Positions 1,855 through 62,958 of a DNA stretch of 64,000 nt are shown here, in pieces. A program made the position numbers and the translations under genes. Source of the DNA: Desulfobacula toluolica Tol2 (GTDB lineage: Bacteria > Desulfobacterota > Desulfobacteria > Desulfobacterales > Desulfobacteraceae); contig NC_018645.1 of the NCBI RefSeq assembly GCF_000307105.1, forward strand, positions 1,686,578-1,750,577, in the 5' to 3' direction. The notes below the pieces were generated by a model. It was not told the DNA's origin. It saw only the letters and a program-made list of their open reading frames with translations, and made no database searches. Each line of letters opens with the position of its first letter. The stretch's first letter is position 1.

Positions 1855-1944
1855 TAACTGCCACGGGCAGACTTGGTATTTCACCTTAAGCTTTGCCGCA
1901 ACAAAATATGAAGGTCTTTATTTGGATTTTTCAAAATTTTCATA
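1855..1944 (-). repeat. Dispersed structured element, copy A (guaA leader)
   Basis: Most diverged copy of a four-member intergenic family. Read on the minus strand it has ATGAA...TTCAT, the shared word AAATCCAAA in the loop, a T-rich linker, then GCGGCAAAG and, about 35 nt later, CTGCCCGTGGCAGTTA. The last word is identical to that in copy C and nearly so in copy B. It lies in the guaA-efp intergenic space, in sense with guaA. Confidence 0.7.
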
Positions 1945-35440: not shown

Positions 35441-36013
35441 TTATTTAAAATATTCATCTTTTTTGATTTCTTCCGTTATACAGCCTGATAATTGGTTGGG
35501 TGTTATATTGAGATGAAAGAATATTTTTTTTTCCAGATTTATTGTATTGGTCCACATTATTTGAATACGATCTTTAAAACTTTTTTTTGTTCCATATTTA
35601 ACCTTGATATATTCAAGTCTTTTGTCCAGGGATACTACTTTGTCATGCAATACCCGTTTGTCAGAATAATTGACTATTTCCTGCACCGTCACAGGCGAAT
35701 CGTTTTCATAAGAGTCCAAAATAACGTGTTGACGTATGATATCACCTATTTCCGGATATCCTAATTCGGTTAACATCCGGCCGCCGGTTTCAGAATGGCG
35801 CTCTTTTGTATCAAAACTTCTGGTTTTTGTTATGTCGTGGAGCAATGCTGCGGAAATTGCCAACCTGGTGTCAAGATCAGGAGAGGTTTTTTTAAGCTTT
35901 ATACATAGAAATCGGGCCACATTGGAAACCATTATAGAATGGTCAATGATATGGTCCATCATATCCATTTTCTCTATCAGCTTAAAACATTCTTTTTGGG
36001 ACGGTATGTTCAT
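35441..36013 (-). CDS. HD-domain phosphohydrolase-like protein
   Basis: A 190-residue soluble protein with an N-terminal HD domain: first His in DHSIMVSNVARFL, the HD pair in SAALLHDITKTRSF, further metal ligands in RHSETGG and IIRQHVILD, and a late Asp in VNYSDKRV. These metal-dependent hydrolases act on nucleotides or related phosphoesters; the substrate here is unknown. It is 41 bp before the longest possible tsaC frame on the same strand, so the two may be cotranscribed. A copy of the structured repeat lies just upstream on the opposite strand. Confidence 0.8.
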   Translation of the reverse strand: MNIPSQKECFKLIEKMDMMDHIIDHSIMVSNVARFLCIKLKKTSPDLDTRLAISAALLHDITKTRSFDTKERHSETGGRMLTELGYPEIGDIIRQHVILDSYENDSPVTVQEIVNYSDKRVLHDKVVSLDKRLEYIKVKYGTKKSFKDRIQIMWTNTINLEKKIFFHLNITPNQLSGCITEEIKKDEYFK

Positions 36014-36035
36014 AGGCCAATCTCTTAATTTTTAA

Positions 36036-36140
36036 ATGAAAGTCTTCAAAAATCCAAACAGCGACTTTCATGCTTTATTGTGGGCAAACCAAAAAGACCA
36101 GATCGTTGTAAAAAATTGTCAAGTATGCCCGTGGCAGTTA
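36036..36140 (+). repeat. Dispersed structured element, copy B
   Basis: ATGAAAGTC pairs perfectly with GACTTTCAT (9 bp) around a loop with AAATCCAAACAG. After a T-rich linker come TGTGGGCAAAC and, 35-40 nt later, TATGCCCGTGGCAGTTA. GGGCA can pair with TGCCC, or TGCC can pair with the following GGCA. It lies between the HD-domain gene and the binding-protein gene. The rest of the gap to 36465 is AT-rich with a TGATCTTT/AAAGATCA hairpin at 36393-36417. Confidence 0.85.
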
Positions 36141-36465
36141 TTCAAAGGGTTAAAATTATACTATTTACCGCTAATATAGGAAAGGTTTTTTTTAGTGTGT
36201 TGTTTTTTTGGCGTCATGTCTCTTGAAAATCAATTTGTTTTGCAACACAAGATGGTGTATGTTGAATTTATAGAAATTGTCCTGAATACCTAAGCTTATT
36301 GCCTTTTTAAAAAATAAAATTCTGTATTGTTCAGCCGTGTTTTTGTTTTTCTTGTTCAGATGTCAAAATAATAATTCAGGTGTTTTTTTGGTTGATCTTT
36401 GTTGAAAGAAAAGATCAGTTTGTTTGTGGCGAAAATCACCAGCCTGGGAAAATAGGGAGGAGATG

Positions 36466-37770
36466 ATGACGAGATGTCAAAGGTCATTGCGGAGGTTGTC
36501 ATTGATATTCTCATTAGCACTTTCAGTTGTTTTTTTGTGGTCTGTAAACGGGTATGCCTACGACAAAATAGTTAAAATAGGTTTGAATTATCCACGAACC
36601 GGCCCATACTCAGTTCAGGGCCTTGATCAGATCAGGGCCACAGAACTTGCTGTGAATGAAATAAACTCAAACGGCGGTATCCTGGAAAAAAAGGTGAAAG
36701 TGGTCTGGCGCGATTCCCAATCAAGGGTTGATACAACAATTTCAAATGTCACGGACTTGATTGATAATGAGCAGGTAAAGATGGTTTTTGGAGGCTCTGC
36801 CAGCAATGTTGCCCTGGCAGCCAGCCGATTGTGCCAGGAAAAAAGGATCATCTTTTTTGGCACTTTGACCTATTCAACAGCAACAACAGGAACACATGCC
36901 CATCGCCATACATTCCGCGAATGCTATAATGCATGGATGGGAGCCAAGGCCATTGGCAGTTATCTTAAAAAGCATTTTCCTGCAAAACAAAAAAAATATT
37001 TTTACATCACAGCAGATTACACATGGGGAGACACAACAGAATCTTCTGTAAGACATTTTACAGGAACCAAAGACAAAGAGAGACACAAAGGCATAAAAAT
37101 ATCCTTTCCTGATGCAACAGAAAAAGAATTTAGAAAAGCAATCCTGTTTGCAGGGATGTTGAAACCGGACGTCCTGGTACTGGTTCTTTTTGGAAGGAAT
37201 ATGAGTACGGCAATCAGGCAGGTAAAAATTCTCGGACTTGAAAAGAAAATTCAAATTATCGTTCCAAATCTTACCCTTGGGATGGCACAAGATGGTGGAC
37301 CAAGAGTTATGGAAGGGGTTATCGGAACGCTTGCCTGGTGCTGGCAAGTGCCGTATCTTTATGATTATCCAAAAGGAAAAAAATTTGTTGAATCATTTGT
37401 CAAAAGGTATAATAGATATCCGTCCACATCCGGGGCTTGTGCTTATACAATTTTATATCAATACAAGCAAGCAGTTGAAAGAGCTGGTTCCTTTGATTCT
37501 TCCGCAGTGATCAGAAGCCTTGAAGGCCACAATTATGTTTCGTTAAAAGATGAACAAATGTGGCGGAAGTTTGACCACCAGTCGGTGCAGAGTGTGTTCA
37601 CTGTAAAATGCAAACCTGAAATTGATGTCATAAAAGACAGGTTTCATCTGGATTATTTTGAAATTATTGAAAAAATGACAGGAGAAGAAGCTGTCCGCAC
37701 GCGAGAAGAATGGAATGCTTTGCGCCTGAATTCAGGCATGCCAATTGATTTGGAAAAACTGCCTGATTGA
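36466..37770 (+). CDS. LivK-type periplasmic binding protein (Peripla_BP_6)
   Basis: A 434-residue exported protein with signal peptide RLSLIFSLALSVVFLWSVNGYA and mature start YDKIVKIGLNYPRTGPYSVQG (quoted in part), typical of branched-chain amino acid, amide or urea ABC binding proteins. The motif LAVNEINSNGGI and the hinge stretch VKMVFGGSASNVAL follow. GGGAGG five bases before the second of two adjacent ATGs sets the start at 36466. No ABC permease or ATPase genes follow; instead a large sensor kinase begins 118 bp later. It is therefore more likely a ligand sensor for that kinase than a transport protein. Confidence 0.85.
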   Translation: MTRCQRSLRRLSLIFSLALSVVFLWSVNGYAYDKIVKIGLNYPRTGPYSVQGLDQIRATELAVNEINSNGGILEKKVKVVWRDSQSRVDTTISNVTDLIDNEQVKMVFGGSASNVALAASRLCQEKRIIFFGTLTYSTATTGTHAHRHTFRECYNAWMGAKAIGSYLKKHFPAKQKKYFYITADYTWGDTTESSVRHFTGTKDKERHKGIKISFPDATEKEFRKAILFAGMLKPDVLVLVLFGRNMSTAIRQVKILGLEKKIQIIVPNLTLGMAQDGGPRVMEGVIGTLAWCWQVPYLYDYPKGKKFVESFVKRYNRYPSTSGACAYTILYQYKQAVERAGSFDSSAVIRSLEGHNYVSLKDEQMWRKFDHQSVQSVFTVKCKPEIDVIKDRFHLDYFEIIEKMTGEEAVRTREEWNALRLNSGMPIDLEKLPD

Positions 37771-45903: not shown

Positions 45904-45960
45904 TAAAATTTTATTGAAGTTATAGTTTTATTGAAGTTATACTTCTCACTGGTATTTTAT

Positions 45961-46048
45961 ATGAAAGTCTTATCAAATCCAAACAGTGACTTTCATGTTT
46001 TTTTGTGGGCAAACATGGGTGAAAGACTAATACTGCCCGTGGCAGTTA
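45961..46048 (+). repeat. Dispersed structured element, copy C
   Basis: ATGAAAGTC/GACTTTCAT 9-bp hairpin with AAATCCAAACAG in the loop, followed by ATGTTTTTTTG, then GTGGGCAAAC and CTGCCCGTGGCAGTTA. This is the best-preserved copy. The first hairpin plus T run resembles an intrinsic terminator for the kinase operon. It ends 37 bp before the next start codon. Confidence 0.85.
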
Positions 46049-60444: not shown

Positions 60445-60870
60445 TCAGACATTGGACAGAATAGCGGTAAGTTCTTTTTGAATGCAATAATAAATATCTT
60501 CATCACTGCCGTAAACATCAATAACATCTTTGTGATTAATGAGTTTTTCCACAATAAATGTTGTCAGGTAAAGGCAGGCAATATTGGGATTTGAAACAAG
60601 GGTTCTCAAAGGTGCAATCATGTAATCAATATCAAAATCCTCTGCTTTGCATAGCTTGTCAAGACATCTTGCCAGCTGGTTTTCAATGCTTGATTTTGAG
60701 ACGGTTTCAACCAGGCCGGTTTCTATAAGTTTCATGGACAGTTTATTGCTGAAAACATCTATGTTGTCCCGGATTGTGTTGATGGTTTTGATTCTTTCCC
60801 GTTCTTTGGAAGATTCGATCTTTGAAAGAAGCTTTGCTTCCCTGTTTCCGGTATAAAAAATTTTAGCCAT
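60445..60870 (-). CDS. Conserved hypothetical helical protein
   Basis: 141 residues, soluble, almost entirely alpha-helical by composition (EAKLLSKIESSKERERIKTI, FSNKLSMKLIETGLVETVSK), with a clustered Cys-poor core and an acidic end (DVYGSDEDIYYCIQKELTAI). A good ribosome site (AAGGAT) precedes the ATG. I do not recognise the family. It lies downstream of recJ on the same strand, separated by the fourth structured repeat, and converges on the nickel operon. HEAT-like or armadillo-like packing is possible but unproven. Confidence 0.65.
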   Translation of the reverse strand: MAKIFYTGNREAKLLSKIESSKERERIKTINTIRDNIDVFSNKLSMKLIETGLVETVSKSSIENQLARCLDKLCKAEDFDIDYMIAPLRTLVSNPNIACLYLTTFIVEKLINHKDVIDVYGSDEDIYYCIQKELTAILSNV

Positions 60871-60891
60871 AAAATTATCCTTAAATTTTAT

Positions 60892-60980
60892 AAGAAAGTC
60901 TTAAAAAAAATAACACAGAGACTTTCAATTTTTGTTGTGGGCAACGCTGAATAAAACAGCAAATCTGTCCTTGGCAATTA
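60892..60980 (+). repeat. Dispersed structured element, copy D
   Basis: GAAAGTC/GACTTTC hairpin with a diverged loop, T-rich linker, GTTGTGGGCAAC, then TCTGTCCTTGGCAATTA. The core word differs from the other copies, but GGGCA still pairs with TGTCC and TGTC with GGCA through G-U pairs. The next plus-strand gene is 2 kb away, so it is not an ordinary mRNA leader. Confidence 0.65.
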
Positions 60981-61048: not shown

Positions 61049-62758
61049 CTAAAGGTCTTCGATAATTATCTGGGCAGCGTGTGTTTTGAATTTATTGATT
61101 TTAATCTTAAAGGCAATCTTCGGGTAATAAACAGGCAGGTTATCAGGATCACTGATGTTAAAATGAAAAGCTTCAACCATATGTTGAGAAATTGAGCCTG
61201 CACTTTTAAGAACCATTTTTCTGTGGCTGTTTCCAATGAGATAAGAAGAGGCTACACAGATATCTTTACACATAAAAACCGGTTCAGGGTTGGCCATACC
61301 AAAAGGCCTTAATCTGTCCATCTCTTTGGCCAGATTAAAATTTATATCTTCAAAATCAAGAGTGGCATCAATGGTCTTTGATTTGTGAAAATCTTTTTCA
61401 GAATAAAAATTTTCCATATGCCGGTTCAAGCTTTGACACAATGCCTGTAAATTGCTTTTTTTAACCGTAAGGCCCGAAGCCATAGCATGGCCGCCAAATT
61501 TTTCAAGCAGGTGTTCGCTGTTTGTGAGTGCTTTGTGGATGTTGATATTATTGATGCTCCTGCCTGAACCAATGGCTTTTTCACCTGCGCTGGACAATAA
61601 AATTACCGGACAACAGTATTTTTTTGACAGTTTTGATGCGGCAATTCCCAGAACACTTGGGTCCCAGTGGTCATCCCATAAAAAGAGAAGCTTTTTATTC
61701 AGCAAGTCCGGTGTTTTTAACAGCCTGTGTTCTATTGTAAGGATAATTTCTTTTTCGATCTTTTGCCGTTTGAGATTTAACTGATCCAGAAGGGATGCTG
61801 TTTTCTCCGCATTGACAACATCTGTGCAGGTCAGCTGTGAAACACAGATTCTGGCATGAGATATCCTGCCTGCAGCATTAATTCTCGGGACAAGTTTAAA
61901 TGAAATATCATCTGAATCAATTTTTCCCAGATCAACCCGGCAGATATCAGCAAGAGATTTTAATCCAAGCCTTGTTCCCTGTTTGATTTTTTTTAGACCT
62001 GCAATGCAAAGAACACGGTTTTCATTGATTAATGGAACCATGTCCCCGATGCTTCCAATGGCAAACAGGTCAAGATAGTCTATGAGATTGGGTTCCTTGA
62101 TGTCTTCCCAGAACTCTTTGTCCCGTAAGAATTTTCTAAGTGCCATGACAAGAAAAAAGGCAACCCCCACACCGGCAAGATAGTCTAATCCAGACCTGCA
62201 GTCTTTTCTTTTAGGATCAACGACTGCCAGGGCAGCAGGCAGGTCAATCCCCGGCTCATGATGGTCGGTTACGATGACATCAATATCTTCAAGATTGGCT
62301 TTGATGACGGCTTCGTGACTGCTGACACCGCAATCAACCGTAATGATCAGGTCAATATCCTGATCCGATGCCATTTGAATATGATCTGTCTGAAGGCTGT
62401 AACCTTCTTTGATGCGATGCGGGATATACCATGACACATTGGCATCGCAATATTCAAAAAAATCACTGAGCAGGGCTGTAGAGGTCACGCCATCTGCATC
62501 AAAATCGCCGAAAATAAGAATCTTTTCTTTGTTTTCAATTGCAGTAAAAATTCGTTCTACTGCTTTGTCCATATCCTTTAAAAAAAAAGGATTGGTAAGA
62601 TTTTTAACATTGGGGTTTAAAAAGAAGTTCGCGTCTTCAATATTTGTGATTCCCCTGGCTGAAAGCATTTTTGCCAGAAGCGGGTGGCAGTTCAGACCTT
62701 TGGTTAATCGTTCGACTATTTCCTGGTCCGGTTCAAGATATTTGAGTATGGTATCCAT
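61049..62758 (-). CDS. recJ: Single-stranded-DNA-specific exonuclease RecJ
   Basis: 5'-3' exonuclease in recombination and mismatch repair. The 569 residues carry the DHH phosphoesterase motifs: ILIFGDFDADGVTSTALL, TVDCGVSSHEA, VTDHHEPG and DPKRKDCRSGLDYLAG. The DHHA1 motif GSGRSINNINIHKAL and the GGHAMASGLTVKKSN stretch follow. A C-terminal OB-like domain completes it. I use the ATG at 62756-62758; the frame extends 22 codons further upstream to 62824 but that part is not RecJ-like. The ribosome site is weak. It is divergent from the DUF4911-miaB pair. Confidence 0.93.
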   Translation of the reverse strand: MDTILKYLEPDQEIVERLTKGLNCHPLLAKMLSARGITNIEDANFFLNPNVKNLTNPFFLKDMDKAVERIFTAIENKEKILIFGDFDADGVTSTALLSDFFEYCDANVSWYIPHRIKEGYSLQTDHIQMASDQDIDLIITVDCGVSSHEAVIKANLEDIDVIVTDHHEPGIDLPAALAVVDPKRKDCRSGLDYLAGVGVAFFLVMALRKFLRDKEFWEDIKEPNLIDYLDLFAIGSIGDMVPLINENRVLCIAGLKKIKQGTRLGLKSLADICRVDLGKIDSDDISFKLVPRINAAGRISHARICVSQLTCTDVVNAEKTASLLDQLNLKRQKIEKEIILTIEHRLLKTPDLLNKKLLFLWDDHWDPSVLGIAASKLSKKYCCPVILLSSAGEKAIGSGRSINNINIHKALTNSEHLLEKFGGHAMASGLTVKKSNLQALCQSLNRHMENFYSEKDFHKSKTIDATLDFEDINFNLAKEMDRLRPFGMANPEPVFMCKDICVASSYLIGNSHRKMVLKSAGSISQHMVEAFHFNISDPDNLPVYYPKIAFKIKINKFKTHAAQIIIEDL

Positions 62759-62958
62759 GTTAATTAGAAAGAATTTATATAAGTAAACCATTATAAAGTC
62801 AATTTGATATAAAAATTTCATCAATTAATAAAGTTTAAAAATGAAACATTTAGTGGTATAGCGGTATCTAAACTTGATCTGGTTTGTATTAATTATGTTA
62901 AGTTCGTAAAAATAGTGATATATTAACAAGTTTTAAAAGAAAACAAGAGTGGAAAAAT

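Follow-up and report, generated by a model that had tools for sequence, protein, structure and literature searches.

What are the hairpin-bearing segments that recur between genes in this part of the Desulfobacula toluolica Tol2 chromosome: RNA elements that act where they stand, or pieces of DNA that move? The window (the whole stretch of 64,000 nucleotides that was analysed, positions 1686578-1750577 of a single-contig genome of 5,197,905 bases, 5.2 Mb) holds four of them, which the first-pass annotation had described as a four-copy family with a common order of short words around a variable stretch, lying only between genes. All four were confirmed in the window sequence; in the coordinates given here, a unit's first base is the T of TATGAAAG, or what corresponds to it, and its last base the final A of GCAGTTA. 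The copy at 45960..46048 (plus strand, type A, 89 bp) is preceded by ATTTTA and followed by TAGAAA, and its model match covers genome positions 1732531-1732629. The three others are also of type A. A 90-bp element at 1855..1944 on the minus strand lies between the start of a guaA-like gene (minus) and an efp-like gene (plus), both names being judged by eye from translated starts. A 106-bp element with a long loop in its right-hand hairpin (H2) lies at 36035..36140 (plus) between ORFs 35441-36013 (minus) and 36424-37770 (plus), and a 90-bp element at 60891..60980 (plus) lies between ORF 60445-60870 (minus) and the stop of the recJ-like ORF 61049-62824 (minus). We hold with high confidence that these four repeats are copies of a mobile DNA element.

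The window copies belong to a large family of ordered units

The terminal 16-mer CTGCCCGTGGCAGTTA, with up to two mismatches, was found 157 times genome-wide against 5 times for a reversed control, so that the common word order reported earlier lies far beyond chance; an H1 (left-hand hairpin) 35-mer with up to three mismatches was found 94 times, and not once in the control. The sequence and structure model R1, built from 56 copies of this genome, gave at least 150 genome matches, the weakest of the 150 scored having E = 3.8e-8. The count of four had thus understated a family of more than 150 copies. Merging the 16-mer and R1 match lists gave 169 places, and both ends could be placed in 158 of these; the 11 places with one unclear end were dropped, two of which (731794 and 748900) are probably not elements.

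The type A unit extends from TATGAAAG to GCAGTTA over about 90 bases and carries no gene. Exactly 89 bp were measured in 97 of the 158 bounded copies, 88 bp in 15 and 90 bp in 17, and a further group of 101-112 bp mostly has a longer H2 loop. Many copies are open-frame by eye (MKVLKNPNSDFHVLLWANQ...); a coding peptide was nevertheless rejected, because lengths of 88, 89 and 90 bp break the frame. A sister type B, with different loop and stem sequences, was matched 45 times in 601 kb of sequence; by pattern, a B-type H1 precedes 25 of these matches, an A-type H1 6 and neither 14. The A-type units start with an A-type H1 in 143 of 158 cases and with a B-type H1 in 3, and some units join an H1 half of one type to an H2 half of another. 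Units also often abut head to tail, a unit-like start standing directly after 34 of the 158 copies and a unit-like end directly before 13. Outside the 169 places lie 13 H1 matches: among the 12 that were fetched, one has no H2 (L340) and one has a decayed H2, and the thirteenth carries a type B H2.

Two local variations were observed along the way. At L341, near position 5005609 of this genome, the H2 loop is expanded by a few tandem copies of AAATTTAAGCAAAAACCC, and at Desulfocicer loci such as L253, L262, L266 and L320 the unit TATACAATGCAGCCTCCAAGGCAAC... directly follows several elements as a further chain partner.

Two hairpins fill the unit and keep their pairing

When representative units were folded, two hairpins filled them: H1 at the left end (ATGAAAGTC/GACTTTCAT) and H2 at the right end (TGGGCA.../...TGCCCG, that is GTGGGCA...TGCCCGTGG). 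The words GTGGGCAAAC and CTGCCCGTGG, listed earlier as separate motifs, turned out to be the two sides of H2 and the variable stretch its loop, the order of the words being as described. In the 45960 copy, H1 occupies 45961..45996 (plus), with ATGAAAGTC at 45961-45969 and GACTTTCAT at 45988-45996 on either side of the loop; this hairpin is present in the RNA fold and absent from the DNA-parameter minimum-energy fold. The H2 region covers 46006..46045 (plus), GGGCA (46007-46011) standing opposite TGCCC (46034-46038). Overlapping it is an alternative hairpin on the same strand, CTGCC (46033-46037) with GGCAG (46041-46045), which also overlaps H2 in the family at large. The terminal TTA at 46046..46048 (plus) completes the right end GCAGTTA.

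Both stems occur in several versions: GTC/GAC, TAC/GTA, CTC/GAG, GAA/TTC and GAG/CTC for H1, and GGCA/TGCC, GCAG/CTGC, GGCG/CGCC, GCTG/CAGC and TCC/GGA for H2. The shuffle statistics given here ignore kinship among copies, and weight was put on the number of different stems. For pairs 7-10 of H1, rows from other species had 80 of 104 cells paired, where 2000 shuffles gave 54.0 on average and 67 at most (26 distinct rows, including one false match that was retained, with G-T allowed and the arms positioned blind to pairing, from anchors beyond the stem). When the 3' arm was shifted by 1 to 3 positions, 37-57 of 104 cells were paired, compared to 87 in register (26 rows starting ATG). With Watson-Crick pairs only, H1 reached 102/207 over all rows (mean 67.4, maximum 89) and 55/93 in Desulfocicer rows (mean 36.2, maximum 51), and there was no covariation excess in rows of its own genome (36/99 against 37.2). 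For H2, 168 of 272 Watson-Crick cells were paired over all rows against a mean of 103.8 and maximum of 126 (1000 shuffles), slid registers giving 62-98; own-genome rows gave 75/124 (mean 53.7, maximum 72), Desulfocicer rows 106/164 (mean 65.0, maximum 84) and the small remainder of rows 13/16 against 12.0, which is no excess. RNAalifold on 56 own copies predicted the CTGCC/GGCAG hairpin only and no compensatory pairs. Taken together, the row comparisons demonstrate that both predicted stems keep pairing while their sequence differs between subfamilies and species. The covariation envisaged by the first-pass annotation was accordingly seen between subfamilies and species in the shuffle tests, and was missing for H1 within the genome itself.

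Two occupied sites are empty in relatives

The region around the 1855-1944 copy (guaA-efp) was matched in all 23 same-genus relatives searched; the site was readable in 18 and empty in all 18, including four relatives (G001, G005, G013 and G017) that bear the element elsewhere. At this junction the relatives read CTTTA-ATCAT, against CTTTTA-element-ATCAC in this genome. The recJ-side site (60891-60980) was readable in 9 of the 10 relatives searched and empty in all nine. R1 found no copy over these 33 relative loci, its best two matches being at chance level (E 0.49 and 0.62). Since the sites are empty in relatives, the element is inserted, mobile DNA. The earlier description of a palindromic, structure-bearing repeat family rather than protein sites is borne out, pairing being kept across subfamilies, but a role as an RNA is not supported: the empty sites show mobile DNA.

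Homologous copies, as the earlier description had anticipated, were found elsewhere, in 11 of 22 same-genus relatives and in Desulfocicer vacuolatum, and in none of 15 genomes from other families of the order. Copy number is erratic, ranging from 0 to more than 150 within one genus. An exact pattern searched in 84,980 species genomes hit 79 stretches. Desulfocicer vacuolatum DSM 3385, the host of another large population, accounts for 67; the other 12 come from some five metagenome assemblies, assigned to Deltaproteobacteria or Desulfobacterales and in one case titled Desulfobacula. Viral contigs gave no match to the pattern. The Desulfocicer and G005 copies have their own stems and loops, which means that each host amplified its own subfamily separately.

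In one relative (L211 in G008) the guaA-efp region carries a different insertion of about 75 bp, a CAATTCTCAT...ATGAGAATTG palindrome with GATA on both sides. It is another MITE-like family in the genus.

The junctions are regular and lack inverted repeats

Among the 158 bounded copies, the left flank has T at positions -4, -3 and -2 in 141, 145 and 135 and A at -1 in 135. The whole TTTTA is present in 87 of 158 and TTTA in 113, in keeping with IS200/IS605-type insertion, which takes place 3' of a fixed target of four or five nucleotides. On the right, 127 copies end in TTA, and in 96 TTA stands on both sides. The two ends, TATGAAAG and GCAGTTA, do not form terminal inverted repeats. By eye, H1 starts one base from the left junction, which leaves no room for a guide tetranucleotide, and GTTG or TTGT stands before H2. 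An integron attC was considered and dropped; GTTAT is at odds with what we take to be the attC core site.

In the seven copies with a TCA left flank the right end is still TTA in five and CTA in two, and other non-TTA left triplets likewise bring no matching change on the right. This independence of the right end is evidence against duplication of the target. The two empty sites have TTTA or TTTTA, which is compatible with no duplication or with a 3-bp TTA duplication. Either there is no target duplication, or the duplication is the 3-bp TTA itself.

These junctions bear on two other routes of insertion. Movement in trans by another class of enzyme (a DDE transposase, or a serine or tyrosine recombinase), with the hairpins as binding sites, could draw on the TTA found on both sides, which could be a 3-bp duplication; empty sites and subfamilies prove mobility, not route, and the loci examined contained no Y1 partner that has such ends. 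However, terminal inverted repeats are absent, the right end does not mirror non-TTA left flanks, and the element ends in hairpins with covarying stems, so that we judge this route unlikely. A small structured RNA copied back by a reverse transcriptase and retroposed into T-rich sites would fit the two compact, RNA-like hairpins and the T-rich left flank. It would also fit copies whose left part is degraded or missing while the right end is intact (the left-arm motif is missing from 42 of 162 H2 rows in Desulfocicer and from 11 of 115 in the own genome). Yet most copies are of full length, L340 has H1 without H2, and the TTTTA and GTTA junctions are too regular for target-primed copying; retroposition thus appears very unlikely.

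Placement points to the target and possibly to selection, with no sign of regulation

With ORFs taken as 80 codons or more by a crude, purpose-made caller, 154 of the 169 copies fall outside ORFs; among the TTTTA sites of the same stretches that served as controls, 1103 of 4681 do so. The statement that copies lie only between genes thus holds for all four in the window and for most in the genome. In 29 of 154 copies the right-hand gene is convergent and has its TAA stop exactly at the terminal TTA, compared to 41 of 1103 controls (p = 1.6e-10), about six times the control odds. The stop codon survives insertion because target and element end both supply TTA, and we tentatively read the coincidence as purifying selection. 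Left-hand genes are antisense in 102 cases and sense in 50, which had seemed a regulatory orientation bias. This candidate was rejected, as control TTTTA sites alone account for it (647:348, p = 0.65). The orientation of neighbouring genes is as in controls, so no regulatory role is indicated, and a role as an RNA gains no support from it.

The intergenic placement, the coincidence with convergent stops and the covarying stems could also be taken to mean that the repeats are regulatory or stabilising RNA elements, or terminators, that function in 5' or 3' untranslated regions. Selection, however, drives any insertion out of genes likewise, and the left-gene orientation matches that of controls. 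Presence is moreover erratic, both tested sites are empty in all readable relatives, and Rfam has no match. We consider such a function distinctly unlikely, and return to the repeats as mobile DNA.

A weak bias was seen relative to replication, 99 of 169 copies being oriented with the fork (p = 0.031), with the fork origin set from GC skew, measured in the same stretches, and from three rRNA matches; copies so oriented have the direction expected of insertion into the lagging-strand template. The rRNA matches and GC skew put the origin near 4.75 Mb. The dnaA gene (G000:C1:2661950-2662432, 2.66 Mb) lies about 0.3 Mb from the terminus-like skew switch. There are eight Bac_DnaA-type matches besides it, six of 257 aa and two of 247 aa, with the same score and frame length within each group; these multicopy matches are presumably IS21-type helper ATPases.

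A candidate route of movement and the search for a mover

Hairpin ends without inverted repeats, a fixed left target and a single orientation are the features from which we infer, by analogy, that the element may be transposed in trans as a single strand. On one strand two hairpins would form and together span the whole element. A Y1/HUH transposase provided in trans would recognise both, would cut after the left-hand TTTTA and after the right-hand GTTA, and would move the element as single-stranded DNA, as in the end-only derivatives (PATEs) of IS200/IS605. Taken as a whole, the statement that a Y1/HUH transposase acting in trans moves this non-autonomous mobile element in single-stranded form has, in our estimation, an even chance of being correct.

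The genome itself encodes one intact RAYT-like Y1 protein (L010, 294 aa) and one broken IS200-type gene; within a palindrome, at a distance of about 250 bp from this broken gene, lies an element. Y1 matches were found in 16 of 24 genomes of the genus, unrelated to element number: the element-free G006 and G008 have 5 and 8, and the element-bearing G017 has one weak partial match. Searched with R1, 29 Y1 loci of the genus yielded no copy, and the terminal hairpins of 15 IS200-type loci differ by eye from the element ends. A parent IS, with tnpA and with ends like these, was found neither in the 29 Y1 loci, nor in the 15 loci read, nor at the 13 outside H1 matches, a search that took in part of the element-bearing genomes. 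In a check directed at Desulfocicer, gaps between neighbours of the same orientation (181 elements in 79 loci of several organisms) bear genes in 13 cases, none transposase-like by eye from the starts of their proteins. No mover was thus identified among the Y1 genes examined.

RAYT proteins call for separate consideration. Desulfocicer has four RAYT-like genes, one 70% identical to L010, and no IS200-type match. Such a pair of related proteins, together with the GTGG before the H2 stem in types A and B, might suggest REP elements in the strict sense, served here by L010. Several observations argue against this. The RAYT-like proteins adjoin other palindromes, not these elements: R1 had no match in the 3.3-kb RAYT loci L010, L330, L332 and L333, and at L331 one element lies about 1.2 kb off. 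The GTGG of types A and B, which lies across the foot of H2 and would fit the REP-type GT[AG]G, is GTGT in the TCC/GGA type, the unit consists of two unlike hairpins in fixed order, and G005, with 28 copies, has no match of RAYT length. REP elements served by L010 are therefore a highly improbable explanation.

Setting REP elements aside, one can go a step further and see a new class of mobile element in bacteria. Its unit would be geneless and made of two hairpins, H1 and H2 serving as modules that can be exchanged; its head-to-tail chains would grow by insertion after the TTA left at each unit's own end; it would have been amplified to more than 150 copies in Desulfobacteraceae; and its mover would not be among the Y1 transposases found beside such elements so far. 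We advance this broader proposal tentatively and consider it rather doubtful.

Comparison with known systems

Bacterial genomes are shaped by REPs and other short repeats without genes, and few of these have a known mode of spread. The present family suits tests of spread, with more than 150 copies whose ends are placed and empty sites in close relatives that can be dated; it also offers subfamilies with rebuilt stems and swaps of hairpin halves, and a cultured host of a second large population, Desulfocicer vacuolatum. It is a ready annotation target in Desulfobacteraceae. The earlier view that no named family has this arrangement agrees with Rfam 15, in which only tmRNA and tRNA match in the window, and which gave no match above gathering for the 45960 copy or in three Desulfocicer loci. 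A description of the element was not found in the literature searched, Desulfobacteraceae included.

IS200/IS605 and TnpA-REP systems have hairpin ends, no inverted repeats, a fixed left target and one orientation, according to three sources (PMC7290912, PMC6006769, PMC8266576). The closest resemblance is to PATEs, the end-only derivatives of IS200/IS605, which two of these (PMC7290912, PMC6006769) describe as short and geneless, bounded by hairpins on both sides, free of terminal inverted repeats and of demonstrable target duplication, and fixed in orientation to a short AT-rich left target. The present element differs from them in that no parent IS with its ends was found in the loci examined, in its copy number (more than 150 here, against one or few) and in its two unlike hairpins with exchangeable stems and its head-to-tail chains. 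Unlike IS200/IS605, it appears to have no space for a left guide tetranucleotide.

With REPs, REPINs and BIMEs it shares a high copy number, intergenic placement, a RAYT-like gene in the genome, species-specific stems with compensatory change and mosaics of unit types. A REP, however, is one palindrome of 20-40 bp with a GTAG or CGTC tag (PMC3733652), whereas the present element is an ordered two-hairpin unit of about 90 bp, arranged head to tail and not flanking the RAYT gene. Like classical MITEs, it is short, non-autonomous, present in many copies and polymorphic in insertion among species, but it is without terminal inverted repeats and without proven target-site duplication. It is of an ordinary kind, a short mobile repeat, in an unusual form: an ordered, modular, chain-forming two-hairpin unit.
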